A DNA stretch of 64,000 nt, taken from NCBI RefSeq assembly GCF_023544465.1, contig NZ_JALPVL010000007.1:124001-188000 (forward strand). Direction: 5' to 3'. Source of the stretch: Paractinoplanes maris (GTDB lineage Bacteria; Actinomycetota; Actinomycetes; Mycobacteriales; Micromonosporaceae). The notes beneath the pieces are model-generated. The model saw only the letters and a list, made by a program, of their open reading frames with translations, had not been told where the DNA came from and did not search any database. Position 1 is the first letter of the stretch. Every line of letters starts with the position of its first letter. Both the position numbers and the translations under genes were made by a program. This document shows, one piece after another, positions 33,709 through 47,297 of the stretch.

Positions 33709-34764
33709 TCAGTTTGCCGCCGCCTCCCGGGACCGGCGGATGATGAAGTTGTTGCCCTGGCCACCGAGGACGCTGTCGCGGATGGCGTGCGCGCCGTCGT
33801 GCGGGATGCCGAGGGCCGGCGCGCTGACGGTCTCCAGCCGCTCGTACTGGTCCTGGTCGAAGGGCACGGCGAGGGCCTTCAGGTAGGCGTCGAGTTGGTC
33901 GGGAGTCCGGGGGCCGATGATCGGGACGATCGCCGTGGCTGAGCGGCGGCCGCGTTCGAGCAGCCAGGCGATCGCCAGGACGGCCGGCTCGATTCCGGTC
34001 TGCCGGCCGATCGTCAGCAGCTCGTCGACCGTGGCGGTCTTCTGGGCGGTGTCCTCGCGTTGGATGATCGAGTTCATCGTGGTGAGCCGGCCTTCGGCGC
34101 TCGTGCGGTATTTGCCGGTGAGCAGGCCGCCGCCCAGTGGTGAGTAGACGGCGGCGCCGATGCCGAGGTGCTCGGCCATCGGCAGCAGGTCGCGTTCGCC
34201 GTCGCGCGCGGCGAGGCTGTATTCGAACTGGGTCGCGATGACGGGTGTGCGCTGGTGCCCGGCGATGGCGGCCGAGACCTGCCAGGCCGGGAAGTTCGAC
34301 AGCCCACCGTGCAGGATCTTGCCGGCCCGCACCAGGTCGTCGAGGGTGTCGACGACCTCGTCGAGGGGCGTGACGGAATCCGGGGCGTGGGCCCAGTACA
34401 GGTCGAGGTGGTCGGTGTTCAGGCGCTTCAGGCTCGACTCGAGGGCGTACGTGATGGTCTTGCGGCTGTTGCCGGTCTTGCTGACGCCGGTCTGCCCGGC
34501 CGTGCCGAAGGTGAACTTGCTGGCGAGCACGAAGTGGTCGCGGTCGGCGGCCAGCAGCGTCGCCAGGTAGGTCTCGGATTCGCCCTGCTGGTAGGTGTCG
34601 GCGGTGTCGATGAAGGTGCCGCCGGCCTCGGCGAAAGCGGTGAAGATGCGGGCGGAGGTGGCCTCGTCGGCCCCGGTCCCCCATCGGGTGCCGAAGTTCG
34701 ACGTGCCGAGGGCGATTTCCGAGACGCGCAGGCCGGTCCGGTTGCCGAAGGTCGTGTATTTCAT
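33709..34764 (-). CDS. Aldo/keto reductase
   Basis: 351 residues, the length of the AKR subfamily with a C-terminal extension. N-terminal GLRVSEIALGTSNFG; catalytic Asp/Tyr in FIDTADTYQQGESE; Lys in VLASKFTFG; His in LYWAHAPD; cofactor contacts in QFEYSLAARDGE and PIIGPRTPDQLDAYLKAL. NADPH-dependent carbonyl reduction by family. Its start overlaps the stop of the MFS gene (ATGA), and it is the last gene of the six-gene operon starting at 39243. Confidence 0.93.
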   Translation of the reverse strand: MKYTTFGNRTGLRVSEIALGTSNFGTRWGTGADEATSARIFTAFAEAGGTFIDTADTYQQGESETYLATLLAADRDHFVLASKFTFGTAGQTGVSKTGNSRKTITYALESSLKRLNTDHLDLYWAHAPDSVTPLDEVVDTLDDLVRAGKILHGGLSNFPAWQVSAAIAGHQRTPVIATQFEYSLAARDGERDLLPMAEHLGIGAAVYSPLGGGLLTGKYRTSAEGRLTTMNSIIQREDTAQKTATVDELLTIGRQTGIEPAVLAIAWLLERGRRSATAIVPIIGPRTPDQLDAYLKALAVPFDQDQYERLETVSAPALGIPHDGAHAIRDSVLGGQGNNFIIRRSREAAAN

Positions 34765-35993
34765 GGCTTCTCCACATCATGCGCTGGTGTGCGGGAGGTG
34801 GTGATGAAGGCGATGACCCCGAGGCCGGCCACCACGGCGCTGTAGCCGAGTGCGGTGTGGGTCAACCCCTCGTGGGTGCTGACGATCCCGGCGATGACGG
34901 CTGGGACGGCGAAGGTCGTGTAGCCGATGACGTAGGTGGCGGAGATGAGCGCGCCCCGCTCAGCGGGCCGGGCGAGTGCGACGAGGCTGCGGAACGTGCC
35001 GGAGAAGGCGAGGCCGAAGCCGACGCCGGACACGACAGTGCTGACGTAGAAGATGGTCGCGCTGGTGAGCGCGGTCGCGACAACGGTGAGGCCGGAGCCG
35101 GCCGCGAGAACGGCGCAGCCCAGGAGCGTGCAGGTGCGCGACGACCAGTTTCTGGTGATCACGGTGCTCGAGCACGAGCATCCGGTGAGCAGCGCGACCG
35201 AGATCGCTCCGGGCAGATGGCTGCTGCTGTGGCTGAGGGCCTTCGCGAGGGTCGGCCCGAGCGAGAGGTAGAAGCTGTTCAACGCCCAAGTCGACAGCAG
35301 CGCGGGGGTGGCTGCCCAGAAGGCGGCGCGGGCGTCGGCCGCGACGGCAACGCGGATCCGGATGCGGCTCAAGGGTCGGGCGGTGATCGTCTCGTCGGCC
35401 CGGGCGGCGACGGCGACTCCGAGCACGATCAGCAGGGCCAGGATGACCAGGTAGGTCAGGCGTGACGGGCTCCAGGCGTACTGGACGAGCAGACCGGACA
35501 GCAGCGCGCCGACGGCCAGACCGCCGGTCGACAGGCAGGCGCCGAGCAGGGACGCCAGGCCCGGCCGGTGGCGTGGTTGCAGGTCCAGCAGGGCGGCTGA
35601 GGCGACCGCGGTGAGCAGGCCGGTGGCGAAACCCTGCACCGCCCGGGCGGCGATCAACAGCGTCAGCCCGTCGGCGGCGGCGAACAGGACCATGCTCACC
35701 GTCAGCAGAGCGGTCGCGGTCAGGGCGACGGGTTTGCGGCCGATCTCGTCGGAGATGCCGCCGAAGACGAGCAGGGCAATCAGCAGCGGACCGGCGTAGA
35801 CGGCGAAGACGACGGTCAGGGTGCTGTCGGTGAAGTGCCAGCGGGTGGCGTAGTCGCCGTAGAGCGGGCTCGGGGCGCTGGCCGCGACGTAGAAGAGCCC
35901 GAGCAGCGCCGCGAAGGGCCAGAAGCCACGAGTGCCGCGGCCGGCCGCGGCGGTCCGCCGTGAAGGTACGACGGGCTGTGCCTGGATGGTCAT
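34761..35993 (-). CDS. MFS transporter (12-helix type)
   Basis: 410 residues with about 12 hydrophobic segments. Motif A is GGISDEIGRKPVALTATAL (about 78-96), and the N-terminal helix contains ALLGLFYVAASAPSPLYGDY. It is probably a drug or metabolite exporter. The N-terminal 22 residues are polar and cytoplasmic. It lies 66 nt after the enoyl-CoA hydratase gene and overlaps the aldo/keto reductase by 4 nt. Confidence 0.9.
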   Translation of the reverse strand: MTIQAQPVVPSRRTAAAGRGTRGFWPFAALLGLFYVAASAPSPLYGDYATRWHFTDSTLTVVFAVYAGPLLIALLVFGGISDEIGRKPVALTATALLTVSMVLFAAADGLTLLIAARAVQGFATGLLTAVASAALLDLQPRHRPGLASLLGACLSTGGLAVGALLSGLLVQYAWSPSRLTYLVILALLIVLGVAVAARADETITARPLSRIRIRVAVAADARAAFWAATPALLSTWALNSFYLSLGPTLAKALSHSSSHLPGAISVALLTGCSCSSTVITRNWSSRTCTLLGCAVLAAGSGLTVVATALTSATIFYVSTVVSGVGFGLAFSGTFRSLVALARPAERGALISATYVIGYTTFAVPAVIAGIVSTHEGLTHTALGYSAVVAGLGVIAFITTSRTPAHDVEKP

Positions 35994-36059
35994 GGCTGTG
36001 CTTTCTCGAGGGATGGATGGCGTCGCCGCACGAGCACTGGCCCGTGCGGCGACCGCCTC

Positions 36060-36905
36060 TCAGCGCGCGATGGGGGCGATGTCGTCGCCGAGGTGATATT
36101 CCAGCGGGCCGCGCTGCTGCAGTCCCTTGTCGAACAGCCGGGAGGCGGTGGTGCGGAACTCCGGACGGTGCGCGGCGGCGGCCCAGAAGGCGTCGGAGTG
36201 CAGCGGGAACTCCGCGTCGGGCAGCCGGGTGTACTTGTTGACGAAGGACTTGATCTCGGCGAGCGCCTGGTGGTTCCAGCCCGACACCCGGGTGGCGTAG
36301 GCGGTGACGAAGGCTTCGAACTGCTCGTCCGGGATGGCGCGGTTGACGTAGCCGTACTTCTCGGCCAGGGCACCGTCGTAGTCGTTGCCGCCGAGCAGGA
36401 TCTCGAACGCGCGGCCGCGGCCGACCAGCGCGGGCAGCCGTCCGCCGGCCCCACCGCCCGCGACCGCGGCGAAGCCGACCTCCATCTGGCCGAGAATGGC
36501 CTTCTCGAGGCTGGCGAAGCGGATGTCGGTGGCGAGCGCGAGCTCGCTGCCGGCGCCGCGGGCGATGCCGCGGATCGCGCTGATGGTGACGGCGGCGAGC
36601 TTGCTGATGCGTACGGTGACGTCGGCCCACGCCGCATAGCCGGTGGGGCTCGGCAGCGCCTCGGCCTGGGCCGGGTCGGCGGCGAGATCCCAGTGGGCGA
36701 GGAAGAAGTCGGGGTCGGCGCTGTCGAAGACTACGACGTTGACGGTGTCGTTGCTCTCGAGCTCGGTGAGCAGCGTCTTGAGGTCGCCGATCATGGTGGG
36801 GCCGATGACGTTGACCGGCGGATTGTCGAAAGTGACCCGCCAGAGAGCAGGCGACTCGGCGGTCAGTCGCAGGTGGGTGGGCTTGAAGTCGTCCAGGAAA
36901 GTCAT
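36060..36905 (-). CDS. Enoyl-CoA hydratase/isomerase family protein
   Basis: 281 residues with the crotonase pattern: VTFDNPPVNVIGPTM, DSADPDFFLAHWDLAADPAQ, the oxyanion strand SAIRGIARGAGSELALATDI and AVAGGGAGGRLPALVGRGRA. The usual catalytic Glu positions of true hydratases are not obvious, so the reaction may differ within the crotonase superfamily. It is a close paralogue of the protein at 42029-42895 (DSADPDFFLAHWD and GSExALATDIRFAS shared). It lies 12 nt after the TMEM175-like gene in the same operon. Confidence 0.9.
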   Translation of the reverse strand: MTFLDDFKPTHLRLTAESPALWRVTFDNPPVNVIGPTMIGDLKTLLTELESNDTVNVVVFDSADPDFFLAHWDLAADPAQAEALPSPTGYAAWADVTVRISKLAAVTISAIRGIARGAGSELALATDIRFASLEKAILGQMEVGFAAVAGGGAGGRLPALVGRGRAFEILLGGNDYDGALAEKYGYVNRAIPDEQFEAFVTAYATRVSGWNHQALAEIKSFVNKYTRLPDAEFPLHSDAFWAAAAHRPEFRTTASRLFDKGLQQRGPLEYHLGDDIAPIAR

Positions 36906-36917
36906 GAGAGCGACCGT

Positions 36918-37571
36918 TCAGTCAGAGGTGGAAGGAGGAAGAATCGGGGTCTGCTCGACCATGTAGAAGCCGGTCTGAGCGGCGTAGAGCAGCAGCATGA
37001 CCACCGGTGCGAAGAATCCGACCAGGGTGATCACCGGATAGAGAGCGGTGCCGAGGCCGAAGCGCCGCAGCGATCCGCGGGCCTCACCGGCACCGGGCGA
37101 CCACCGCAGCAGCTGGCGGCGCAGCAGGTGCCGCAGGATGAGCGTGAAACTGAGCGCCATCCCCTCGTTCGAGATGCCGTAGAGCAGAACCGCGAGGTGG
37201 GTGTCGAGGCCGCCGGTCCGCAGATAGTCGGCCAGCGCCGAGGTGCTGAACGGGATGGTGGTGACCCACATCAGAAGCAGCAGGTTGAGGAACACCACCG
37301 TCCGATCCACCCGGGCCACGAGCGCGAAGAGCGCGTGGTGGTTGACCCAGATGACGCCGACGACGAAGAAGCTCAGTGCGAACGCCGCGAACGACGGCCA
37401 CTCGTGGCGCAGCTGGGGGGCCAGACTGCCCGGCCCGTCGGCTTGGACGTGCAGGTCGAGCGCCAGCAGGGTGATTACGACGGCCAGCACTCCGTCGCTG
37501 AAGGCCTCGAGGCGCCCCTTGGACCCGCCGTAGGCCCGGCGCGAGAGCACCGGCTCCTCGGCGGCCGCCAT
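36918..37571 (-). CDS. TMEM175 family (DUF1211) potassium-channel-like membrane protein
   Basis: 217 residues. The first helix carries the family's filter-forming motif FSDGVLAVVITLLALDL (about 20-36), and five to six hydrophobic segments follow (FAAFALSFFVVGVIWVNHHA, VFLNLLLLMWVTTIPF, others). By family, a tetrameric or dimeric K+ leak channel. The ATG at 37571 shares its A with the TGA of the upstream hydrolase, so translation is coupled. The start was chosen for that overlap and because the conserved part begins soon after. Confidence 0.88.
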   Translation of the reverse strand: MAAAEEPVLSRRAYGGSKGRLEAFSDGVLAVVITLLALDLHVQADGPGSLAPQLRHEWPSFAAFALSFFVVGVIWVNHHALFALVARVDRTVVFLNLLLLMWVTTIPFSTSALADYLRTGGLDTHLAVLLYGISNEGMALSFTLILRHLLRRQLLRWSPGAGEARGSLRRFGLGTALYPVITLVGFFAPVVMLLLYAAQTGFYMVEQTPILPPSTSD

Positions 37572-38413
37572 CAGTGCGTGGCGGCGGTGAGGATCACGTC
37601 GGTGACCTCGGCCGGGTGGGAGATCAGCGACAGGTGCGACCCGTTGATCCGGGTGACCCGCGCGTGGGCGCGCGCCGCCATCAGCGTCTGGGCGGCGGGC
37701 GGGATCACCTTGTCCTGGCGGCTGATGACCGCCCATGAGGGGACGGTTTTCCAGGCCGGGGCGCTCGACGGTTCGGCGAACGCGGTCGTGGCGAACGGCG
37801 TCTGGGTCGCCGCGAGAACAGCGGCTTGATCACGGGGCAGGTCACCGGCGAACTCGGAGGCGAAGATCGCCGGGAGGACGTAGGAGTCGCCCGCTCCGGC
37901 CGGTGCCCCGGGGTATCCGGTGAGGCGGAAGACGCGGGCCGGGTCGGTCAGGGCGGGCTCGAGGACCGAGCCGGATCCGCCGGTGAGGCTGCCGATCGAC
38001 TCGCCCTGGTCGGGGGCGAAGGCGTCCACGTACACCAGGGCCTTGACGTTGGGGTTGCCGGTCGCGACGCCGGTGATGACGAATCCGCCGTACGAGTGCC
38101 CGACCAGCACGATCGGGCCGGTGACCGCGGCCAGGTAGTCGCGCAGGTAGGCGGAGTCCTCGGCGGGGCCGCGACCCGGCTGGGGTGCGACGTCGACGGT
38201 GTAGCCGCGGCGCTGGAGGCGGCTGATCTCGCCGGACCAACTGGAGCCGTCGGCCCAGGCGCCGTGCACGAGCACGATCGTCGGCCGGCCCGAGCCGGAC
38301 TGAGCTGGGGCGGCCGCCGCCGAGGACAGCGAAGAGGTCAGGGTGCCTGCGCCGAGCAGCAGGCCGGTGGCTACGGCGGCGGCGATGCGCCGGCCGCGTC
38401 GGGTGATGGTCAC
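37571..38413 (-). CDS. Exported alpha/beta hydrolase (VHGAWADG group)
   Basis: 280 residues with a Sec signal peptide (RRGRR then AAAVATGLLLGAGTLTSSLS). Core motifs: IVLVHGAWADGSSW, nucleophile elbow GHSYGG, YVDAFAPDQGES, acid near SRQDKVIPPAAQ and histidine in NGSHLSLISHPAEV. It is a paralogue of the hydrolases at 13440, 14189 and 50988. The start is a GTG at 38413 with AAGGA upstream, overlapping the preceding stop as GTGA. It is the second gene of the operon. Confidence 0.91.
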   Translation of the reverse strand: MTITRRGRRIAAAVATGLLLGAGTLTSSLSSAAAAPAQSGSGRPTIVLVHGAWADGSSWSGEISRLQRRGYTVDVAPQPGRGPAEDSAYLRDYLAAVTGPIVLVGHSYGGFVITGVATGNPNVKALVYVDAFAPDQGESIGSLTGGSGSVLEPALTDPARVFRLTGYPGAPAGAGDSYVLPAIFASEFAGDLPRDQAAVLAATQTPFATTAFAEPSSAPAWKTVPSWAVISRQDKVIPPAAQTLMAARAHARVTRINGSHLSLISHPAEVTDVILTAATH

Positions 38414-39243
38414 AGGGTTCCTTCCGAGAGGGACTGGTGGGAGCGTCGTGCTGCGGACAGGTCCTGCCGGTCGATCCAGCCCAGGACGTAATGGGCCACG
38501 TCCGACCAGCCGCTGTCGAAGACCAGGGAGTGGCCGCGGCCCCCAAAGGCGTGGTAGTCGGTCACCGCCGGTGAGCCGGAGTAGAGCCCGTAGGCCTGGC
38601 GGCTGACGACCTCCGGGACGGTGTGGTCGTCGGTGGCGCCGGTGATCAGCAGCGGGCCCCGATCGGCGGTGAGGTCGACCTCGGTCGGCGAGTGCGGGTC
38701 CTTCTTGGCCGCGATGAGCTCGAAGACCGGCCGCCCGGGACCGGGGATGGCGTACGCGTCGAACAACCGCCGCGACTCGTCGCGGTCGAGCGCGTTGCCG
38801 AACCCGTACCGGAACTGGCGCTCGCTGAGCGCGACCGCCCGGGTCTTGTTCCGGGGGTTGCGCAGCACCGGCAAGGCCGAGCGGATCTGGGCGAAGGGAA
38901 GTTTGCCGGCGCCCTTGATCGGTGCCGGGCTGATCGCGACGGCGGCGGCCGCGACACCGGCGGCAAGCAGCTTCTGGGCGATCAGGCCACCGAACGAGTG
39001 CCCGACGACGATGGGCTTGCCGGGGAGTTCCGCGATGTAGCGGGCGTAGCCGGCGGTGAGCTCGGCGACGCCGAGGCCGGCCACGGCCTCGGGCCGGGCG
39101 CGGGTGGCCGCCGGGGTGGCGTCGTCGCCGGTCCAGCCCGGGGCATGGGTCGCGTACCCGGCCTCGGCGAACATGTCGTGCCAGGGCTTCCAGGCGGCAG
39201 TGTGGATCCACAGACCGTGGATCAATACGACGGGGGTCGGCAT
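38410..39243 (-). CDS. Alpha/beta hydrolase, first gene of the six-gene operon
   Basis: 277 residues, no signal peptide. VVLIHGLWIHTAAW oxyanion region, elbow VVGHSFGG (about residue 83), AISPAPIKGAGKLP, an acid around TGATDDHTVPE and the histidine in GGRGHSLVFDSGW. It is a different subgroup from the VHGAW proteins. The ATG is at 39243. Its promoter region (39244-39391) is shared with the divergent HxlR gene and carries a perfect inverted repeat. Confidence 0.9.
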   Translation of the reverse strand: MPTPVVLIHGLWIHTAAWKPWHDMFAEAGYATHAPGWTGDDATPAATRARPEAVAGLGVAELTAGYARYIAELPGKPIVVGHSFGGLIAQKLLAAGVAAAAVAISPAPIKGAGKLPFAQIRSALPVLRNPRNKTRAVALSERQFRYGFGNALDRDESRRLFDAYAIPGPGRPVFELIAAKKDPHSPTEVDLTADRGPLLITGATDDHTVPEVVSRQAYGLYSGSPAVTDYHAFGGRGHSLVFDSGWSDVAHYVLGWIDRQDLSAARRSHQSLSEGTL

Positions 39244-39292
39244 GATGCGCTCCGCACGTTGGTGGGTCGGGGTCTCCCGCCACTGTGCGCCC

Positions 39293-39315
39293 CTGGATTG
39301 GGAAAAACAATCCAG
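39293..39315. promoter_or_regulatory. HxlR operator candidate A
   Basis: Arms CTGGATTG and CAATCCAG with a 7-nt spacer GGAAAAA, perfect 8-bp inverted repeat between the divergent hydrolase operon and HxlR-1. Confidence 0.65.
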
Positions 39316-39339
39316 ATGTCCGGGCCGTCACACCTGGGT

Positions 39340-39369
39340 TGGAAAAGTTGTACGCTGGAAAAGTTGAAC
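39340..39369. repeat. Two 14-bp direct repeats upstream of HxlR-1
   Basis: TGGAAAAGTTGTAC (39340) and TGGAAAAGTTGAAC (39356), 13 of 14 identical and 16 bp apart start to start. They end 22 nt before the HxlR-1 ATG and could be extra regulator contacts. Confidence 0.5.
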
Positions 39370-39391
39370 AGTTTCTCCGGAGGCGAACCTC

Positions 39392-39850
39392 ATGCCCATC
39401 ACGAAGCTGCGCGACAGCAGCTGCTCGGTCTCCCGCAGCCTGTCCGTCCTGGGCGAGCGCTGGACCCTGCTCATCCTGCGGCTCGCCTTCGAGGGCGAGA
39501 CCCGGTTCGACGGCTTCCGATCCAACCTCGGAATGGCCGCCGACGTGCTCAGCGACCGGCTCGGCACCCTGGTCGAGAACAGCATCATGACCAAGCAGGC
39601 ATACCAGGAACCCGGCCGCCGGACCCGCTACGAATACCACCTGACGCCGGCCGGTCAGGAACTGCACGTCGTCATCGCCGGCCTGCAGCAATGGGGCGAT
39701 GTCCACCTGCCCTGGGAGGGCGGCCCGACCGTGGTTCGCCAGGAGCATGAGACCTCGGCGCCGGTCCGGGTGGCCTTCGTCGACGGCGACGGCCACGAGG
39801 TTCCCCTCGACGAGGTCGACGCGGTGCGCACCGCCGTCTATCCGCGTTAG
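39392..39850 (+). CDS. HxlR family regulator (HxlR-1)
   Basis: 152 residues. Winged-helix pattern: CSVSRSLSVLGERWTLLILR then RFDGFRSNLGMAADVLSDRL, wing around GRRTRYEYHLTPAGQEL, and helix VVIAGLQQWGDVHLP. The conserved cysteine near the N-terminus (CSVSRSL) is the position that senses oxidants or electrophiles in several HxlR proteins. The ATG at 39392 follows CCGGAGG. It is divergent from the six-gene operon and 49 nt upstream of the FAD oxidoreductase on its own strand. Confidence 0.92.
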   Translation: MPITKLRDSSCSVSRSLSVLGERWTLLILRLAFEGETRFDGFRSNLGMAADVLSDRLGTLVENSIMTKQAYQEPGRRTRYEYHLTPAGQELHVVIAGLQQWGDVHLPWEGGPTVVRQEHETSAPVRVAFVDGDGHEVPLDEVDAVRTAVYPR

Positions 39851-39862
39851 GCCGCGTCCCTG

Positions 39863-39885
39863 CTAGGTTGTTTTTTACAACCTAG
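39863..39885. promoter_or_regulatory. HxlR operator candidate B
   Basis: CTAGGTTG, spacer TTTTTTA, CAACCTAG: a perfect 8-bp inverted repeat immediately upstream of the FAD oxidoreductase start (39900). Confidence 0.65.
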
Positions 39886-39899
39886 ATGGGAGTCGTGGC

Positions 39900-41552
39900 A
39901 TGGAACCGAACCCGACCGAGGCACGACCCGCTCTCACCGACGAGCAATGGCACCGATTGAGCGCGTACGGCGTCGCGGACCACCTGCCCGCCGGCACCTG
40001 GATCTTCCGCGCCGGGGACGAGGTGGCCGACATGATTCTCGTCGAGTCCGGCCGGGTGGCCATCGTGCGACCGTCGACCGCCGACGACAACGAGGCCGTC
40101 GTCGCCCGATACGGCCCGCGCGAGTTCACCGGCGAGCTCAACCTGCTCACCCGGCAATCGGCGTATCTCAGCGCCCGCACCACCGAGGCCTCGGCCGTTC
40201 TCCGGGTCGGCACAGACGCTTTCCGTACGCTCATGGACCGCGACCCGGAGCTGTCCGACATCGTGCTGCGGGCCCTGATCGCCCGGCGCCGCGACCTGCG
40301 CGACGGTCAGGCCGCCCGCAGCCTGGAGATCGTCGGGCACGACGCCTCCGCAGCCGCCCTGGCGCTGCGGACCTACGCCGGCCGCCTGCAACTGCCCCAC
40401 ACCTGGAATGACATCGATACACCCACCGGCTCCGCACTGGCCCGGGCGGTGTCGGCCTCGGCCGGGGACCTGCCGTTGGTGATCACCCCCGGCGCTGTCC
40501 TGCGGCGGGCCACACCCCTCCTGCTCGCCGACCACTTGGGCCTGTCCTACCGGCCTCGCAGCGGCGAAGAGGTCGACCTGGTCGTCATCGGCGCCGGCCC
40601 GGCCGGGCTCGCGGCCGGCGTCTACGGAGCCTCCGAGGGACTGCGCACGCTGGTGCTGGACTCGGTCGCGGCCGGCGGGCAGGCGGCGTCCAGCTCCCGC
40701 ATCGAGAACTATCTGGGCTTCACCTCCGGCATCAGCGGCAACGACCTCACCGCGGCCGCCGCCGTGCAGGCCCAGAAATTCGGCGCCCGCATCGCCAGCC
40801 CGTGCGAGGTCGCCGAACTGCACTCCGAGCCCGGCCAGGTCCGCGTCGTGCTCACCGATCGCACCACGATCTGCGCCGGCGCCGCGGTGATCGCCACCGG
40901 CGCCCGATACCGGGCCCTGCCCCTGCAGCGGTGGGCGCAGTTCGAAGGGGCCGGTATCTACTACGCCGCCACCGAGATCGAAGCCCGCGCCTGTGGCGAG
41001 CGCCCCGTCGCCGTGGTCGGCGGCGCCAACTCCGCCGGCCAGGCCGCGCTCTACCTCGCCGCCCGCGGCAGCCAGGTCACCCTGATCGTCCGCGGTCCCG
41101 ATCTGCGGGCCGGGATGTCGGCGTATCTGGCCGACCGCATCCTCGCCGACCCGGGCATCACCGTCCGCACCGGCACCCAGGTCACCGCGCTGCACGGTGA
41201 CGACCACCTGGAGGCGGTGACCCTGTCCGGGCCGTTCCCCGACGCCGGGCCGCAGGAGTGCGCCGGGTTGTTCTGCTTCATCGGCGCCACCCCGGCAACC
41301 GCCTGGCTGGAGGGTCTGGCCACCGACGATCACGGCTTCCTGCGTACGGACGCCCAGCTCGACGACGGCGACCTGGGCGCACAATGGGCGACGCTGGGAC
41401 GCCGACCATTGCCCTTCGAGACCAGCCGGCCGCGGGTCTTCGCCGCCGGGGACGTCCGCGCCGGCTCGATGAAACGCGTCGCGGCCGCGGTCGGCGAGGG
41501 CGCCAGCGCCGTCAGCTCGGTCCATACGGCGTTGGCTGCGATCGTCGCGTAG
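39900..41552 (+). CDS. Cyclic-nucleotide-binding-domain FAD oxidoreductase (thioredoxin reductase fold)
   Basis: 550 residues. An N-terminal cNMP-binding-like domain (about 15-135; AGTWIFRAGDEVADMILVES and GPREFTGELNLLTRQ) precedes a thioredoxin-reductase-like part with FAD motif VVIGAGPAGLAAGVYGASEG (about 226), GGQAASSSRIENYLGF, NAD(P) motif VVGGANSAGQAAL (about 365) and the closing FAAGDVR. The redox CxxC of thioredoxin reductase is absent: its place reads YYAATEIEARACGERP. The ATG at 39900 has GGGAG upstream, right after an operator-like repeat. It is probably an NAD(P)H-dependent quinone, nitro or flavin reductase; the substrate is unknown. Confidence 0.92.
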   Translation: MEPNPTEARPALTDEQWHRLSAYGVADHLPAGTWIFRAGDEVADMILVESGRVAIVRPSTADDNEAVVARYGPREFTGELNLLTRQSAYLSARTTEASAVLRVGTDAFRTLMDRDPELSDIVLRALIARRRDLRDGQAARSLEIVGHDASAAALALRTYAGRLQLPHTWNDIDTPTGSALARAVSASAGDLPLVITPGAVLRRATPLLLADHLGLSYRPRSGEEVDLVVIGAGPAGLAAGVYGASEGLRTLVLDSVAAGGQAASSSRIENYLGFTSGISGNDLTAAAAVQAQKFGARIASPCEVAELHSEPGQVRVVLTDRTTICAGAAVIATGARYRALPLQRWAQFEGAGIYYAATEIEARACGERPVAVVGGANSAGQAALYLAARGSQVTLIVRGPDLRAGMSAYLADRILADPGITVRTGTQVTALHGDDHLEAVTLSGPFPDAGPQECAGLFCFIGATPATAWLEGLATDDHGFLRTDAQLDDGDLGAQWATLGRRPLPFETSRPRVFAAGDVRAGSMKRVAAAVGEGASAVSSVHTALAAIVA

Positions 41553-41567
41553 CCCCCCGGCGGAGGA

Positions 41568-42032
41568 TCACAGACGGTTCGGATAGCCGTTGTGGTGGAC
41601 CACGTCGATCTTCTCCTCCGGCAGTTGCCGCCCGCCCTCATCGACGAAGGCGACCCGGACCGGCCTGCCGGTACGCCGATCGAGGCGCTCGGTCGACGGC
41701 CCGGCCGGCCTCGGCAGATTCGCGTCGCCCCAGAGCTGCAAGCCGCCGATGACGACGTGAAGCTGCCGTCCCGCCGCGGTCAGGTGGTATTCGCACCGCG
41801 CCCGCGCCCCGATCTCCTGGTAGCCGCGCTTCTCCAGGACACCGGCGTCGACCAGCGTGGCCAGCCGATCGGCCAGCACGTCGGCCCCGAGACCCAGGGA
41901 CTCCCGGAACGCCTCGAACTTGGTCAGCCCGCTCAGGGCGTCCCGGATGATCAGCAGTGTCCAGCGCTCACCCAGGACGGCCAGGCTGCGCGACACCGAA
42001 CAGCTGGAACCGGCGAGCTTGTCGATGGTCAC
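41568..42032 (-). CDS. HxlR family regulator (HxlR-2)
   Basis: 154 residues: CSVSRSLAVLGERWTLLIIR, FEAFRESLGLGADVLADRL, wing ARCEYHLTAAGRQL and LQLWGDANLPRPAGP. It is strongly similar to HxlR-1, including the N-terminal CSVSRSL cysteine. The start is GTG at 42032, overlapping the stop of the enoyl-CoA hydratase gene (GTGA), so it is translated from that gene's mRNA. Confidence 0.92.
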   Translation of the reverse strand: MTIDKLAGSSCSVSRSLAVLGERWTLLIIRDALSGLTKFEAFRESLGLGADVLADRLATLVDAGVLEKRGYQEIGARARCEYHLTAAGRQLHVVIGGLQLWGDANLPRPAGPSTERLDRRTGRPVRVAFVDEGGRQLPEEKIDVVHHNGYPNRL

Positions 42033-42895
42033 CGCGGCCCACTTTCCTCGAGGCCGGACTCCGGCCGGCTCAGGCGGTCCAGATAGCGGCCGAGGTGCAG
42101 CTCCGCGTCGCCGCGTTGCTGCAGGCCGAGCTCGAAAAGCTGACGGGTGCGGTCCTGCGTCTCGGGCCGGGCCACTGACGTCCAGAACGCGTTCATCTGC
42201 GGCGGGAACTCCGCCGCGGGCGGTAGCGTCACGGTGTCCACAAAGGCTTTCATCTCGCGCAGGGCCCGGGTGTCGAACCCGGCCATCCGCTCGGCGAACC
42301 GGTCGACGAAGGTGACGAACTCGGCGTCGGGGATCGAGCGGTTGACGTAGCCGTACCGTTCGGCCAGGTCGGCGTTGTAGTCCTCGGCGCCGGCCAGGAT
42401 CTCCAGGGCCCGCCCCCGGCCGACCAGACGCGGCAGCCGGGTGGCCGGGCCACCGCCGGGGACAGCGCCGGCGCCCAGCTCGAACTGCCCGAGCACGGCG
42501 CGTTCCCGGCTGGCGAACCGGATGTCGGTGGCCAGGGCGAACTCGCTGCCGGCACCGCGGGCCCGGCCCCGCAACGCCGAGATGGTGATCTGCGGCAGGC
42601 GGGCGAGCCGGACGAGCACGTCCAGCCACGGGTGCATCCCGGTCGGCCCGAGCGGCAACGCCTCCGTCGAGGCCGGGTCGGCGGCGATGTCCCAATGCGC
42701 CAGGAAGAAGTCGGGATCGGCGCTGTCGAAGACGATGACGGCGAGTTGCTCGTCGGCCTCCGCGGCCGTGAGCAGTTTCTGCAGCTGCAGGACCATCGGG
42801 GCGTCGATCAGGTTGATCGGCGGGTTGGCGAAGGTGGCGGTCCACAAAGTCGGCGACCGCCGGTCGATCCTCAGGCGTGACATGGCGTTCAACAT
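42029..42895 (-). CDS. Enoyl-CoA hydratase/isomerase family protein, second copy
   Basis: 288 residues, crotonase superfamily: ATFANPPINLIDAPMV, DSADPDFFLAHWDIAADPAS, SALRGRARGAGSEFALATDI, AVPGGGPATRLPRLVGRGRA. It is a paralogue of the 36060-36905 protein. ATG 42895 was chosen because it gives an N-terminus close in length to that paralogue; ATG 42883 is possible. Neither has a clear ribosome site, and operator C lies 5 nt upstream, so a short-leader or leaderless mRNA is likely. It is coupled to HxlR-2. Confidence 0.88.
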   Translation of the reverse strand: MLNAMSRLRIDRRSPTLWTATFANPPINLIDAPMVLQLQKLLTAAEADEQLAVIVFDSADPDFFLAHWDIAADPASTEALPLGPTGMHPWLDVLVRLARLPQITISALRGRARGAGSEFALATDIRFASRERAVLGQFELGAGAVPGGGPATRLPRLVGRGRALEILAGAEDYNADLAERYGYVNRSIPDAEFVTFVDRFAERMAGFDTRALREMKAFVDTVTLPPAAEFPPQMNAFWTSVARPETQDRTRQLFELGLQQRGDAELHLGRYLDRLSRPESGLEESGPR

Positions 42896-42900
42896 AGCGG

Positions 42901-42923
42901 CTGAATTGTTTTTTGCAACCCAG
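42901..42923. promoter_or_regulatory. HxlR operator candidate C
   Basis: CTGAATTG, spacer TTTTTTG, CAACCCAG (6 of 8 arm positions pair) just upstream of the second enoyl-CoA hydratase/HxlR-2 pair. Confidence 0.55.
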
Positions 42924-42965
42924 GTGAGCGCCACCACAAACCGGCCTTCCCGGCCCCGTCGACTG

Positions 42966-42988
42966 CTAGGTTGCATTTTCCAATGCAG
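42966..42988. promoter_or_regulatory. HxlR operator candidate D
   Basis: CTAGGTTG, spacer CATTTTC, CAATGCAG (5 of 8 arm positions pair), 14 nt upstream of the SDR start. The left arm is identical to that of site B. Confidence 0.5.
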
Positions 42989-43002
42989 CTCAGGAGGATC
43001 GC

Positions 43003-43704
43003 ATGACCAGCATCAAGAACGCCGTCGTCGTCGTGACCGGAGCCAACGGCGGACTCGGGCAGGAGTTCATCAAGCAGGCACTCGACCGCGGCGCCGCCAA
43101 GGTCTACGCCACCGCCCGCATGCCCCGGAAGTGGAACGACGACCGCGTGATCCCGTTGCCCCTCGACGTCACCGACCCGGCGTCCATCGGCGCCGCGGCC
43201 GCCGCAGCCGGTGACGCCACCATCGTCGTCAACAACGCCGGGATCTACGACTACGGCGACACCATCACGGGTACGCCGATGAAGCGCATCCGCGAACTGT
43301 TCGACACCAACTTCTTCGGCGCCGTCGAAGTCAACCGGGCTTTCGCGCCGATCCTCGGCGCCAACGGCGGCGGCGCCTTCCTGGATGTGCACTCCGTGCT
43401 CAGCTGGCTCGGCGTAACCGGCGGCTACAGCGCCACCAAGGCCGCGTTCTGGAGTGCCACCAACGCCTTCCGGGTCGAGCTGGCCGGCCAGCACACCCAG
43501 GTCGTCGGGCTGCACCTGGGCTACACCGACACCCCGATGATCTCGATGGTGACCGACGAGAAGAACGACCCGGCCGACATCGTGCGGGCCGGCTACGACG
43601 GTCTCGAGGCCGGCGAGCACGAGGTCCTGGCCGACGACCTCGCCGTCACCGTGAAAGCCGGCCTGGCCGGCACGATCGAAGACCTGTACGGCCTGAGCCG
43701 CTGA
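43003..43704 (+). CDS. Short-chain dehydrogenase/reductase (SDR)
   Basis: 233 residues. Cofactor motif TGANGGLG (residues 12-19), NNAG (about 77), a catalytic serine at about 131 in HSVLSWLGV and YSATK (about 143-147). Classical SDR with no C-terminal extension. The ATG at 43003 has an AGGAGG site. Divergent from the enoyl-CoA hydratase/HxlR-2 pair with candidate operators C and D between them, so probably in the same regulon. Confidence 0.92.
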   Translation: MTSIKNAVVVVTGANGGLGQEFIKQALDRGAAKVYATARMPRKWNDDRVIPLPLDVTDPASIGAAAAAAGDATIVVNNAGIYDYGDTITGTPMKRIRELFDTNFFGAVEVNRAFAPILGANGGGAFLDVHSVLSWLGVTGGYSATKAAFWSATNAFRVELAGQHTQVVGLHLGYTDTPMISMVTDEKNDPADIVRAGYDGLEAGEHEVLADDLAVTVKAGLAGTIEDLYGLSR

Positions 43705-44252: not shown

Positions 44253-44977
44253 CCCGGATCAGCGGGGATCTCGGCGCTTGCAAAGCAGCCGTACGCGAAA
44301 GGATGTGGTCTCTGCTGGACGCACACGGTGTGTCGTACCCGCTGGGCGCGACCGGTCGCATTCCGCGCTTCAGCGCCGCGGACGTGGCTGCTCAGCGACT
44401 CGCCGAAACGGCCGCCTGGGAAGCAGCGGAAACGCTCAAGGTCAACCCGGACACAGCGCAGTTTCCGGTACGGCTCCACGCGTTGGCCGAGGGCAAAGTG
44501 GTTTACATGGCCGTTCCCTACCTCGCCGGCCCCCATCCTTTCTACTTTCTCGATCCGGCCGAACTCGGCGAGCAGGCTCCCGAGGCCGCCACCATCGACG
44601 GTGCGGCGCGGCTCGCTCCGTCAGTGGGCTTCGACGAGATGCGCGAGATCGATCTGGCGGTCTGTGGCAGCGTGGCGGTCAATCGCAACGGCGCCCGCGT
44701 CGGCAAAGGAGGCGGGTACGCAGATATCGAACTGGCGCTTCTCGTCGAGGCTGGACTGATCACCGCGCGTACCGTACTGGCGACCACCGTCCACGAGTTG
44801 CAAGTCGTGCACGAAGAGCTTCCCGAGACCGCGCATGACTTCCGCCTCGACGTGATCGCGAGCCCGGTCGAAGTGGTGCGCTGCGGATCACCGTATCGAC
44901 CCAGCGGGATCTATCCCAGTCACCTCACGTCCAGCAAGATCGCCTCTATCCCGATTCTGCGTGACCGCATGGGTTGA
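44249..44977 (+). CDS. 5-formyltetrahydrofolate cyclo-ligase-like protein
   Basis: 242 residues. The segment RVGKGGGYADIELALLVEAG (about 151-170) is the phosphate-binding motif region of the 5-FCL fold, and VHELQVVHEELPETAHDF is the usual downstream strand-helix. The motif GKGGGYADIE rather than GGGYYDR fits the 5-FCL-like clade (COG0212-like, MTHFSD-like) better than classical 5-FCL, so the activity on 5-formyl-THF is uncertain. The C-terminus contains RPSGIYPSHLTSSKIASIP. It is coupled to the NUDIX gene by a 4-nt overlap. Confidence 0.85.
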   Translation: MTRISGDLGACKAAVRERMWSLLDAHGVSYPLGATGRIPRFSAADVAAQRLAETAAWEAAETLKVNPDTAQFPVRLHALAEGKVVYMAVPYLAGPHPFYFLDPAELGEQAPEAATIDGAARLAPSVGFDEMREIDLAVCGSVAVNRNGARVGKGGGYADIELALLVEAGLITARTVLATTVHELQVVHEELPETAHDFRLDVIASPVEVVRCGSPYRPSGIYPSHLTSSKIASIPILRDRMG

Positions 44978-45026
44978 CGGACAAGCGGCGGCACCGGTGG
45001 CCTTTGAAGGGAGTGGTGGAGGGAAC

Positions 45027-47297
45027 GTGCGGCGGATATGGCGATGGGTGATCACCACCGGCTCCACGGTCGGTGCGGCGTCGGCGGTCTTCGGACTCGG
45101 CCGACTCTTCCCGGCCTGGGACGATGGCTGGGTCCAGACTGCGACCGGGCTCGCCGCCGCCGTCGTGGCCGCTCCGCTGTGTGTATGGGCCGGCAAGGCG
45201 AAGTCGGTCGCCGGCAAGAAATCCGTCACCGGCCCGGCCACGTGGAGCATCCCGATCCTGCCGAATCCCGAGTTCGTCGGCCGGGAGGTCGTGCTGGACA
45301 CCCTCTCCGCGCGGTTCTCCGAATCGGCCGGCGTGGCGGTGCAGACCGTGCAAGGGATGGGCGGAATAGGCAAGACACAGCTCGTGGCCCACTACGCTCA
45401 CACAAACCGAGCGAAGTACCGGATCGTGTGGTGGATACCGGCCGAGGATCCGACATTGATCGGGGCCCGGTTCGCTCAGTTGGCTGTGGCCCTTCACTTG
45501 GCGCGCTCCAGTGACGATCTCACCACGAGCGTGACACGCGTCTTGGGCCACCTGAACGCCACTTCCGGCTGGTTGCTGATCTTCGACAACGCGGTGTCCC
45601 CCAGCGATCTCCGCTCCTGGCTCCCGTCCGGGGCGGGGCACATACTGATCACATCCCGGACCGGCGCCTGGAACCACTTGGGGGCGACCACCGAGCTGCG
45701 GGAGATGCCCCGCGGCGAATCGGTGGAACTGGTCCGTCGAAGACATCCGGCGCTCTCGCGCGCGGACGCCAATCGGCTGGCGGAGGGTCTGGGAGACCTG
45801 CCGCTCGCCCTGATTCAAGCAGCCGGCTTCATGCAAACCAGCGGCACACCGGTGGCGGTATACCTCCAGCTGGTGGAGAAGTACGCCGGGGAGGTCATGC
45901 ACCACGGCCCGGTCGGGGACCACGACGGGACGCTCACCGCCTCGGTGACGATGAGCATGCGGCAACTCGCGGCCGGTGATGCCGCAAGCTTGAGACTCTT
46001 GCAGGTGGCCGCGTCGCTGGGCCCCGAGCCGATTCCCCTGACCTGGCTCGCCGGGCGCCGGGGAAGTTCCGGTGAACGTCCGCTGGAAGCGGAGCTGGAG
46101 ATTCGCGCGAGCGTCAGCACTTTCGTCGAGCTCGGTCTGGCCACCTCAACCAATGGCGGTATTCAGTTCCACCGCTTGACCCGGGCCGTCATCACCGATG
46201 CCATCGACCCCGATGTGCTGGTCTCGGTCCGCGACGAGGCCCGTGAGTTACTGAGCAGTCAGAGACCGGCGTCCACGGACGATTCGGCGTCCTGGGGCCA
46301 GTGGGCTCGGCTGATCCCGCACCTCCTCGTGACGGACCCCGCCGACAGCCATGATCCGGAAACCCGGCGGACGGCCTGCGATGCCACCCGCTACCTGCTC
46401 AAGAGTGGCCAGATCGACGCTGGGCACCACCTCGCGACCACGCTCCACGAGGCGTGGAGGGTCCGCCTCGGCGAGGAGGATGTCGACACCCTGCGCGCCG
46501 CCCAACAACTCGGTCACGCCCTGCGTATCCGGGGCGAATATCGCCAGGCGCAGGAGATGGACCTGGACACCGCGAATCGGCGTCGCCGGATTCTCGGCTT
46601 CGACCACCCGGACAGCCTGTGGGCAGCGAGCAACCTGGCAGTGGACTGGCGTCAGCTCGGTGAGTACCAGAAGGCCGAACAGGTCGATCAGGACACGTAC
46701 GATCGGCGTCGGCGGGTCCTCGGTGAGAGCCACCCCGATACGTTGTCGTCGGCGAGCAATCTCGCGGTGGACTGGCGTCAGCTCGGGGAGCACGAGCGAG
46801 CCAGTCAGCTTGACCGCCATACTCTCGACCTGCGAAAAAGAATCCTGGGTGAGAGCCATCCGGACACCTTGGATTCTGAGAACAATCTCGCCATTGATCT
46901 GTTGGAGCTCGGGCAGCCTGAGCAGGCCCTCGCAATAGGGCAGGACACACTCCGGCGACGACGGGCGATCCTGGGAGAGAACCACCCGGACACACTCTGG
47001 ACCGCGAGTAACGTCGCACTCGCGTGGCGGCGCCTCGGTGAGCACCAACGCGCGCGAAGACTCAATGAAGACACTCTGCACCGCCGCCGGCGCATACTGG
47101 GCCACGATCACCCCGACACACTGCGATCGGCGAGTCACCTGGGTGTCGATCTCCGAAACCTTGGTGAATACGAGCGCTCGCGGGAGCTGACCGAAGACAC
47201 CTTGCGGCGCCGGCGGCGAGTACTGAGTCCCGATCACCCCGACACGCTGCGATCGGAGAAGAACCTCGCGATCGTCCAAGGGAGGCTTCTGGGCTGA
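45027..47297 (+). CDS. NB-ARC/STAND ATPase with N-terminal membrane segments and TPR array
   Basis: 756 residues. The N-terminus has two hydrophobic segments (WVITTGSTVGAASAVFGLG and TGLAAAVVAAPLCVWAG), probably a membrane anchor. An NB-ARC domain follows: FVGREVVLDTL, P-loop GMGGIGKTQLVAHYA (about residue 118), Walker B GWLLIFDNA, a GHILITSRTG sensor, and GLGDLPLALIQAAGF. The C-terminal 270 residues are six full 42-residue TPR (kinesin-light-chain-like) repeats plus a partial one, each with HPDTLxSxxNLA and RRRRxLG. The start was set at GTG 45027 with GGAGGG; an upstream GTG at 44961 overlapping the cyclo-ligase gene is an alternative. STAND proteins are sensors/switches; the ligand is unknown. 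Confidence 0.9.
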   Translation: MRRIWRWVITTGSTVGAASAVFGLGRLFPAWDDGWVQTATGLAAAVVAAPLCVWAGKAKSVAGKKSVTGPATWSIPILPNPEFVGREVVLDTLSARFSESAGVAVQTVQGMGGIGKTQLVAHYAHTNRAKYRIVWWIPAEDPTLIGARFAQLAVALHLARSSDDLTTSVTRVLGHLNATSGWLLIFDNAVSPSDLRSWLPSGAGHILITSRTGAWNHLGATTELREMPRGESVELVRRRHPALSRADANRLAEGLGDLPLALIQAAGFMQTSGTPVAVYLQLVEKYAGEVMHHGPVGDHDGTLTASVTMSMRQLAAGDAASLRLLQVAASLGPEPIPLTWLAGRRGSSGERPLEAELEIRASVSTFVELGLATSTNGGIQFHRLTRAVITDAIDPDVLVSVRDEARELLSSQRPASTDDSASWGQWARLIPHLLVTDPADSHDPETRRTACDATRYLLKSGQIDAGHHLATTLHEAWRVRLGEEDVDTLRAAQQLGHALRIRGEYRQAQEMDLDTANRRRRILGFDHPDSLWAASNLAVDWRQLGEYQKAEQVDQDTYDRRRRVLGESHPDTLSSASNLAVDWRQLGEHERASQLDRHTLDLRKRILGESHPDTLDSENNLAIDLLELGQPEQALAIGQDTLRRRRAILGENHPDTLWTASNVALAWRRLGEHQRARRLNEDTLHRRRRILGHDHPDTLRSASHLGVDLRNLGEYERSRELTEDTLRRRRRVLSPDHPDTLRSEKNLAIVQGRLLG
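46479..47297 (+). repeat. 126-bp tandem coding repeats (TPR units)
   Basis: Units start at 46479, 46605, 46731, 46857, 46983, 47109 and 47235 (the last is cut by the stop). Each encodes exactly 42 residues. The uniform period and high similarity indicate recent unit duplication. Confidence 0.85.

Follow-up and report, generated by a model that had tools for sequence, protein, structure and literature searches.

The window analysed in this work is a stretch of 64,000 nucleotides from Paractinoplanes maris, and its subject is a gene cluster in which two paralogous regulators of the HxlR family, HxlR-1 and HxlR-2, are encoded together with enzymes and transport proteins, and in which the promoter regions carry four copies of one inverted repeat. 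The original prediction placed 23-bp sites of the form CTnnnTTG-N7-CAAnnnAG at 39293, 39863, 42901 and 42966, in front of a six-gene operon (33709-39243, minus strand) plus HxlR-1, an oxidoreductase gene, a hydratase gene plus HxlR-2, and a dehydrogenase gene, and it read the peptide CSVSRSL in both HxlR proteins; the sites agreed in every letter, and the gene assignments and the peptide were correct. The 7-nt spacer is A/T-rich as described (5-7 A or T out of 7 in the four spacers), while the inverted repeat has perfect arms in two dyads and imperfect arms in the other two. The sites, with their scores against an external matrix introduced below, and the genes next to them are as follows.

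39293..39315, unstranded: operator 1, exact pattern, 32.4 bits, its position kept in orthologous loci; common to the divergent six-gene operon and HxlR-1, so that it serves two divergent promoters
39863..39885, unstranded: operator 2, exact pattern, 36.9 bits; before the cNMP-FAD reductase-like gene
42901..42923, unstranded: operator 3, exact pattern, 35.0 bits; before ECH-2 and HxlR-2
42966..42988, unstranded: operator 4, exact pattern, 30.2 bits; before the SDR gene
39392..39850, plus strand: HxlR-1, 152 residues, one cysteine (C11); PF01638, E 3.6e-17, 62.4 bits (cut-off 20.8)
39900..41552, plus strand: cyclic-nucleotide (cNMP)-binding domain fused to a thioredoxin-reductase-like flavoprotein (flavin adenine dinucleotide, FAD, type) without CxxC; PF00027, PF07992, alignment to 4gcm
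41568..42032, minus strand: HxlR-2, 154 residues, cysteines at 11 and 80; PF01638, E 6e-15, 55.3 bits (cut-off 20.8)
42029..42883, minus strand: enoyl-CoA hydratase/isomerase-like protein 2 (ECH-2), PF00378; overlaps HxlR-2, with an in-frame earlier ATG at 42895
43003..43704, plus strand: short-chain dehydrogenase (SDR) of the PRK08264 type; NF006119, 325.8 bits (cut-off 249)

The exact dyad occurs at four places in the whole genome of 9,351,851 bases on 31 contigs, all of them the named sites, and the reversed pattern, used as a control, is found nowhere in the same bases. The own-genome searches were made with patterns with mismatches: allowing one mismatch added no site within the 64-kb window, and a narrower pattern with up to two mismatches found one further, unrelated place in the genome. 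Shuffled versions of the window, searched alike, held 0.53 sites on average, and only one of 100 reached four. A matrix built from 17 sites, none of them from the window, gave the four sites 30.2-36.9 bits, whereas nothing else in the 64 kb scored above 11.1; three of the 17 come from other families, and Winogradskya humida (G042) was omitted as near-identical to W. consettensis (G040). An equal density of the motif elsewhere, which the original prediction had named as a refuting result, was not observed, and the proposed arrangement of one operator, four sites and two paralogous HxlR proteins inside the set holds, the regulon being confined to this locus in its own genome within the reach of the pattern. 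We consider, with a probability of roughly 0.88, that the four dyads are operators of the cluster's own HxlR proteins, which would repress the cluster until a signal arrives.

The perfect arms of two of the four sites and the position of one site between HxlR-1 and the next gene might also be expected of RNA hairpins, acting as attenuators or terminators in place of protein sites. A search of 39200-43050 for a terminator-like site found none. Across 20 sites (a tally that takes in the near-identical W. humida and two one-mismatch sites), the arms follow CTRRRTTG, with purines at 59 of 60 variable left-arm positions and pyrimidines at 56 of 60 right-arm positions, and in 24 of the 60 variable pairs the two letters are neither Watson-Crick nor G-U partners. 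Since each arm keeps its purine identity singly but not its pairing with the other, the dyad resembles DNA read by a protein dimer; we reject the hairpin reading, which seems extremely improbable.

Conservation of the operator with HxlR genes

The original prediction also proposed a comparison of orthologous promoters, and in other genomes the dyad was found to be kept together with HxlR. Within the genus sample of 60 genomes, own included, orthologues of HxlR-1 (78-84%) occur in four of the 59 others: W. consettensis, W. humida, Actinoplanes palleronii (G013) and G015. In all four the dyads stay in the promoter gaps of the cluster despite a reshuffled gene order. In G015, HxlR-1 and the MFS gene lie about 440 kb from HxlR-2 and the SDR, flavoprotein, hydrolase and hydratase genes, and dyads are present at both places. 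A. palleronii keeps three operators, and its HxlR-2 is reduced to a 65-residue remnant (52% over 65 residues; L062:3568-3741), which indicates that HxlR-1 alone probably suffices there. In the 60 genomes the pattern was counted at 35 places, and at 21 of them the locus contains an HxlR relative (own genome 4, G013 3, G015 5, G021 1, G040 3, G042 3, G048 2); for the other 14, not every one of which was inspected, no HxlR link is known. Among more distant HxlR loci of the genus, a site of at least 15 bits was present in one of 20.

Beyond the genus, a profile of eight HxlR proteins fetched the best 80 of 173 loci, from which three genus loci already used were dropped, leaving 31 relatives at 46-63% identity and 46 more distant ones. 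The operator of these other families is close to CTGAGTTGG-N5-CCAACTCAG. A site of at least 20 bits stands within 300 bp upstream of the HxlR gene in 21 of the 31 closer relatives (25 at a threshold of at least 12 bits) and in one of the 46 distant ones; at 20 bits the background was 0/620 for dinucleotide shuffles and 1/620 for stretches taken from elsewhere in these loci. The 901,621 bases around HxlR in these 77 loci hold 29 copies of the relaxed dyad CTnnnTTN9AAnnnAG, 24 of them no more than 400 bp upstream of the gene, and two scrambled controls occurred zero times and once in the same bases. In a second set, taken at the level of the order, 14 of 16 loci had a site of at least 15 bits close to HxlR; the two loci of the studied genome and two loci used in the matrix had been left out, and the 16 include four contigs that also belong to the profile-fetched set. 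In a tree of 53 proteins HxlR-1, HxlR-2 and a Curtobacterium protein share one eight-row clade (96/96) whose inner order is not resolved.

These sets of loci were fetched through HxlR, and the observation that HxlR is the constant neighbour across families while the other genes vary must be read with that in mind. It is conceivable that another regulator binds the dyad and that the HxlR genes are merely carried along, the more so as the attribution to HxlR comes from comparing sequences. The approach was also reversed: a strict form of the motif, searched without regard to neighbouring genes, was found at four places in three of 394 genomes (control, zero), and an HxlR gene was present at all four, beside the site in three and about 1.2 kb away in one. 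Two of these four loci had contributed to the matrix, and the strict form does not match the four sites of the window. Together with the constancy of HxlR amid changing neighbours, this makes a foreign regulator very unlikely, and the assignment of the operator to HxlR appears well supported. Genome comparison, as far as sequences can tell, shows that the site exists, is conserved, is linked to HxlR and has a defined placement relative to start codons and -10-like hexamers; from these findings we infer binding itself, repression rather than activation, and the use of one operator by both paralogues.

The system is less isolated than the claim of a self-contained one supposed: within the reach of the pattern the regulon is confined to this locus in its own genome, but an HxlR gene beside an SDR gene with the same operator recurs across actinobacteria. 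Judged from the sequences, the regulon is real and ordinary in kind, its operator is exceptionally clear, and it is new as a regulon and as an operator of a known repressor family. The literature searched, which left many subscription papers outside its reach, describes no operator for this branch of HxlR. The operator is seen in dozens of promoters, so that regulons of the branch can be called from sequence, and it provides a defined DNA for footprinting and co-crystals as well as natural variants for reading the recognition helix. HxlR-like genes are numerous in actinobacteria; in the genome studied here, 19 first-look candidates for them were noted.

Three side observations concern related loci. 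In Actinomadura and Thermomonospora (L126, L140, L146, L148) a related dyad with outer GT/AC replacing CT/AG lies about 1.2-1.3 kb upstream of HxlR and accompanies HxlR proteins with a shorter wing, possibly a specificity switch. Mycolicibacterium hodleri (L113) and Mycobacterium yunnanensis (L095) have related ECH, flavoprotein and HxlR genes (59-78%), and M. hodleri also has relatives of the aldo/keto reductase (80%) and of the hydrolase (61%). A 3.8-kb contig labelled Candidatus Melainabacteria (L092) carries a 60% relative of HxlR-1 together with two dyads that match the actinobacterial type well; it is probably misbinned.

Promoter geometry and the direction of control

The placement of the dyads relative to the start codons bears on whether the HxlR proteins would repress or activate. 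The promoter features on which this discussion draws are the following.

39334..39350, plus strand: CTGGGTTGGAAAAGTTG, a conserved half-site of the HxlR-1 promoter whose start lies 41 bp from that of operator 1; the window has a single copy
39351..39356, plus strand: likely -10 of HxlR-1, TACGCT (TAACCT and TAAAGT in orthologues)
39864..39869, plus strand: likely -10, TAGGTT, within the gene-side arm of operator 2, with A at arm position 3
42967..42972, plus strand: likely -10, TAGGTT, within the gene-side arm of operator 4, with A at arm position 3

In all five HxlR-1 promoters examined (G040 and G042 being close relatives), a half-site CTRRRTTGGAAAAnTTG stands exactly 41 bp downstream of the operator and is followed directly by TAnnnT. 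At the SDR and FAD promoters of the genus, the gene-side arm begins with CTA in eight of eight cases, compared with five of 24 other arms (G042 omitted; Fisher p 1.2e-4), and this arm yields TAGGTT, TAAGTT, TAGATT or TACGTT, a -10-like TAnnnT shortly before the start codon. In other families, 18 loci with divergent HxlR and SDR genes show the same asymmetry, A being found on the SDR-side arm in 14 and on the other arm in one (p 2e-5, uncorrected for kinship); the gap between the end of the operator and the inferred SDR start is 9-20 bp in 14 of the 18. A -10-like hexamer within the gene-side arm suggests repression by covering the promoter. In the other families, two or more dyads at 12 bits are present in 18 of 31 loci, and 13 of 19 spacings between them measure 27-28 bp.

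A sequence of events can be proposed from these data. Dimers of HxlR-1, and probably of HxlR-2, would bind the 23-bp site with one winged helix on each CTRRRTTG arm. At the SDR and flavoprotein genes the bound dimer would sit on the core promoter, over the -10, and at the HxlR-1 gene the operator plus half-site would give the regulator a second contact at its own gene. While the sites are occupied, neither the enzymes and the transporter nor the regulators would be expressed, until a signal acting via the Cys11-bearing N-terminal helix released the dimers and switched on the whole cluster.

The opposite direction of control has a precedent in Bacillus subtilis HxlR, an activator whose DNA binding improves once it has reacted with formaldehyde (PMC7835342), and HypR of the same species is listed as an activator (PMC10458429). 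The proteins studied here could likewise act as B. subtilis HxlR does at hxlAB, a signal strengthening their binding and aiding the polymerase, and at several promoters (HYD1, MFS and ECH1 in relatives) the operator does lie upstream of a possible -10. Activation nevertheless seems unlikely, considering that the SDR and FAD gene-side arms carry the -10-like hexamer, that an operator ending 9-20 bp before the SDR start would be an unusual position for an activator, that Lys13 of the Bacillus mechanism is missing from all 95 aligned homologues, and that YodB and CatR are repressors (PMC8063818, PMC6212828).

Several results weigh against repression by the cluster's own HxlR proteins. With two activators in B. 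subtilis, family membership is no proof of repression. A scan for E. coli-type promoters found none, so the -10 reading rests on TAnnnT, which has only three fixed letters. No 20-bit site was found in the 300 bp upstream of HxlR in ten of the 31 close relatives (L084, L087, L095, L098, L099, L106, L108, L110, L112, L113); L087 and L098 have a site 0.9-1 kb upstream instead, and a fixed-width palindrome search of 13 loci without a good site yielded only G+C-rich dyads, in two of them. The mycobacterial loci L095 and L113 share the gene set and have weak dyads at best, where either the operator has shifted or the control has changed. The G008 locus of the genus, with HxlR at 46-53%, has no operator site. 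Alone, the loose pattern is a poor guide: an HxlR gene lies within 1.5 kb in six of the 29 loci that it found, and the reversed control pattern occurs at 73 places in the same 60 genomes, so that lone matches mean little and clusters of them are what counts.

A more general operator code for a branch of long actinobacterial HxlR proteins can be put forward tentatively, although we lean against it as a whole. The 23-bp dyad CTRRGTTGG-N5-CCAACYYAG would double as the core promoter: on the gene side, position 3 of the arm would be tuned to A for the -10, and G would be retained in the partner arm. Either a half-site or another dyad would follow at fixed spacing, mostly 27-28 bp in other families and 41 bp in HxlR-1 promoters, and paralogues with C11 alone and with C11 plus C80 would feed two inputs into one regulon. 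Related branches would shift the letters (the outer ones to GT/AC in the Actinomadura group, the inner ones to TTC/GAA or TTT/AAA in others) along with the recognition helix and wing.

The regulators, their possible signal and the enzymes under their proposed control

The predicted structure of HxlR-1 (mean pLDDT, predicted local distance difference test, 90.2) is nearest to PA1607 and PA1374, followed by YodB, HypR and HxlR. The first two, from Pseudomonas aeruginosa (PDB 2f2e, 4gcv), are the closest solved structures, matching over near full length including the C-terminal part, at 33-34% identity. B. subtilis HxlR (PDB 7bzg, with DNA; PMC7835342) shares the winged-helix fold and Cys11, but it is an activator and has the Lys13 needed for formaldehyde sensing. 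HypR (PDB 4a5m, 4a5n) is alike in fold and N-terminal cysteine but has a two-cysteine switch, whereas HxlR-1 has one cysteine and HxlR-2 a second one at 80. A parallel in organization is found in YodB and CatR, paralogous MarR/DUF24 repressors acting on the common catDE promoter of B. subtilis (PMC6212828, PMC8063818): two repressors of the same family with an N-terminal sensor cysteine, promoter boxes and redox-enzyme targets. In contrast to them, the present proteins are about 40 residues longer at the C-terminus, HxlR-1 has a single cysteine and the sites are of one operator form. An actinobacterial parallel may be QorR of Corynebacterium glutamicum, a DUF24 protein and redox-sensing regulator of a quinone oxidoreductase with one named sensor cysteine, C17.

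The N-terminal cysteine, from which the original prediction argued for an electrophile or quinone signal, is present in both HxlR proteins as claimed and is not distinctive, being found as Cys11 in 95 of 95 aligned homologues; for this reason it is not diagnostic of such a signal. Residue 13 is I, V, L, A or M in these homologues (Val in HxlR-1 and HxlR-2) and Lys in none, which rules out formaldehyde sensing by a Cys-Lys pair. In a two-cysteine switch, such as that of HypR, a second cysteine pairs with the N-terminal one, and this is ruled out for HxlR-1 by its single cysteine. Cys80 of HxlR-2 lies in the wing region and is missing from the G015 orthologue. YodB uses Cys6 and Cys101 for disulfide exchange between subunits (PMC8063818); this arrangement has no counterpart here, as HxlR-1 has one cysteine and Cys80 of HxlR-2 is not kept in G015. 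The signal may act by alkylation of Cys11, by an inter-subunit disulfide or as a non-covalent ligand. We give an electrophile about even odds, and a thiol-reactive small molecule as the signal is a guess; the earlier interpretation is, overall, partly supported.

The genes of the six-gene operon are relevant to the nature of the signal.

38410..39243, minus strand: alpha/beta hydrolase 1, first in the operon; PF12697
37571..38413, minus strand: alpha/beta hydrolase 2; weak BioH-like match, 30.9 bits, below cut-off
36918..37571, minus strand: TMEM175-like channel; PF06736, E 4.1e-28, start uncertain
36060..36905, minus strand: enoyl-CoA hydratase/isomerase-like protein 1 (ECH-1); PF00378
34761..35993, minus strand: MFS transporter; PF07690
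33709..34764, minus strand: aldo/keto reductase (AKR); PF00248, E 7.8e-70

Two enoyl-CoA hydratase-like proteins, two hydrolases and a transporter resemble a breakdown path as much as a detoxification system, and the signal could be a metabolite of compounds on which the cluster's enzymes act (an acyl-CoA, an aldehyde or an aromatic compound), in which case the cluster would be catabolic rather than protective. This falls only somewhat short of an even chance. The retention of Cys11 in all 95 aligned homologues speaks for the protective alternative, since characterised relatives in Bacillus, outside this branch, sense quinones, diamide and HOCl through their N-terminal cysteine (PMC8063818, PMC6943732). 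The best matches listed for the MFS protein, multidrug-type exporters below cut-off, point the same way. No quinone reductase above cut-off is named among the matches listed for the 11 cluster proteins.

The cNMP-FAD protein scores 186.6 bits against TIGR01292, below the cut-off of 343.45, and nothing in it aligns with the redox-active CAVC of 4gcm, so it is probably not a disulfide reductase. Its relatives occur at 79-83% in four genus genomes and at 61-70% in Actinacidiphila rubida and two mycobacteria. That one switch would govern this CxxC-less fusion together with both hydratase-like proteins and the TMEM175-like channel makes their functions approachable via the inducer. The TMEM175-like protein has no match in the orthologous clusters L060-L064; in a Blastococcus genome (L090), a 63% relative was noted in the neighbourhood of paired HxlR and SDR genes. 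The N-terminus of alpha/beta hydrolase 2 resembles a signal peptide by eye, and the protein is perhaps exported. Beyond the cluster, at 44961-47297 on the plus strand, the translation shows a large protein which, by eye, resembles the NB-ARC/tetratricopeptide type.

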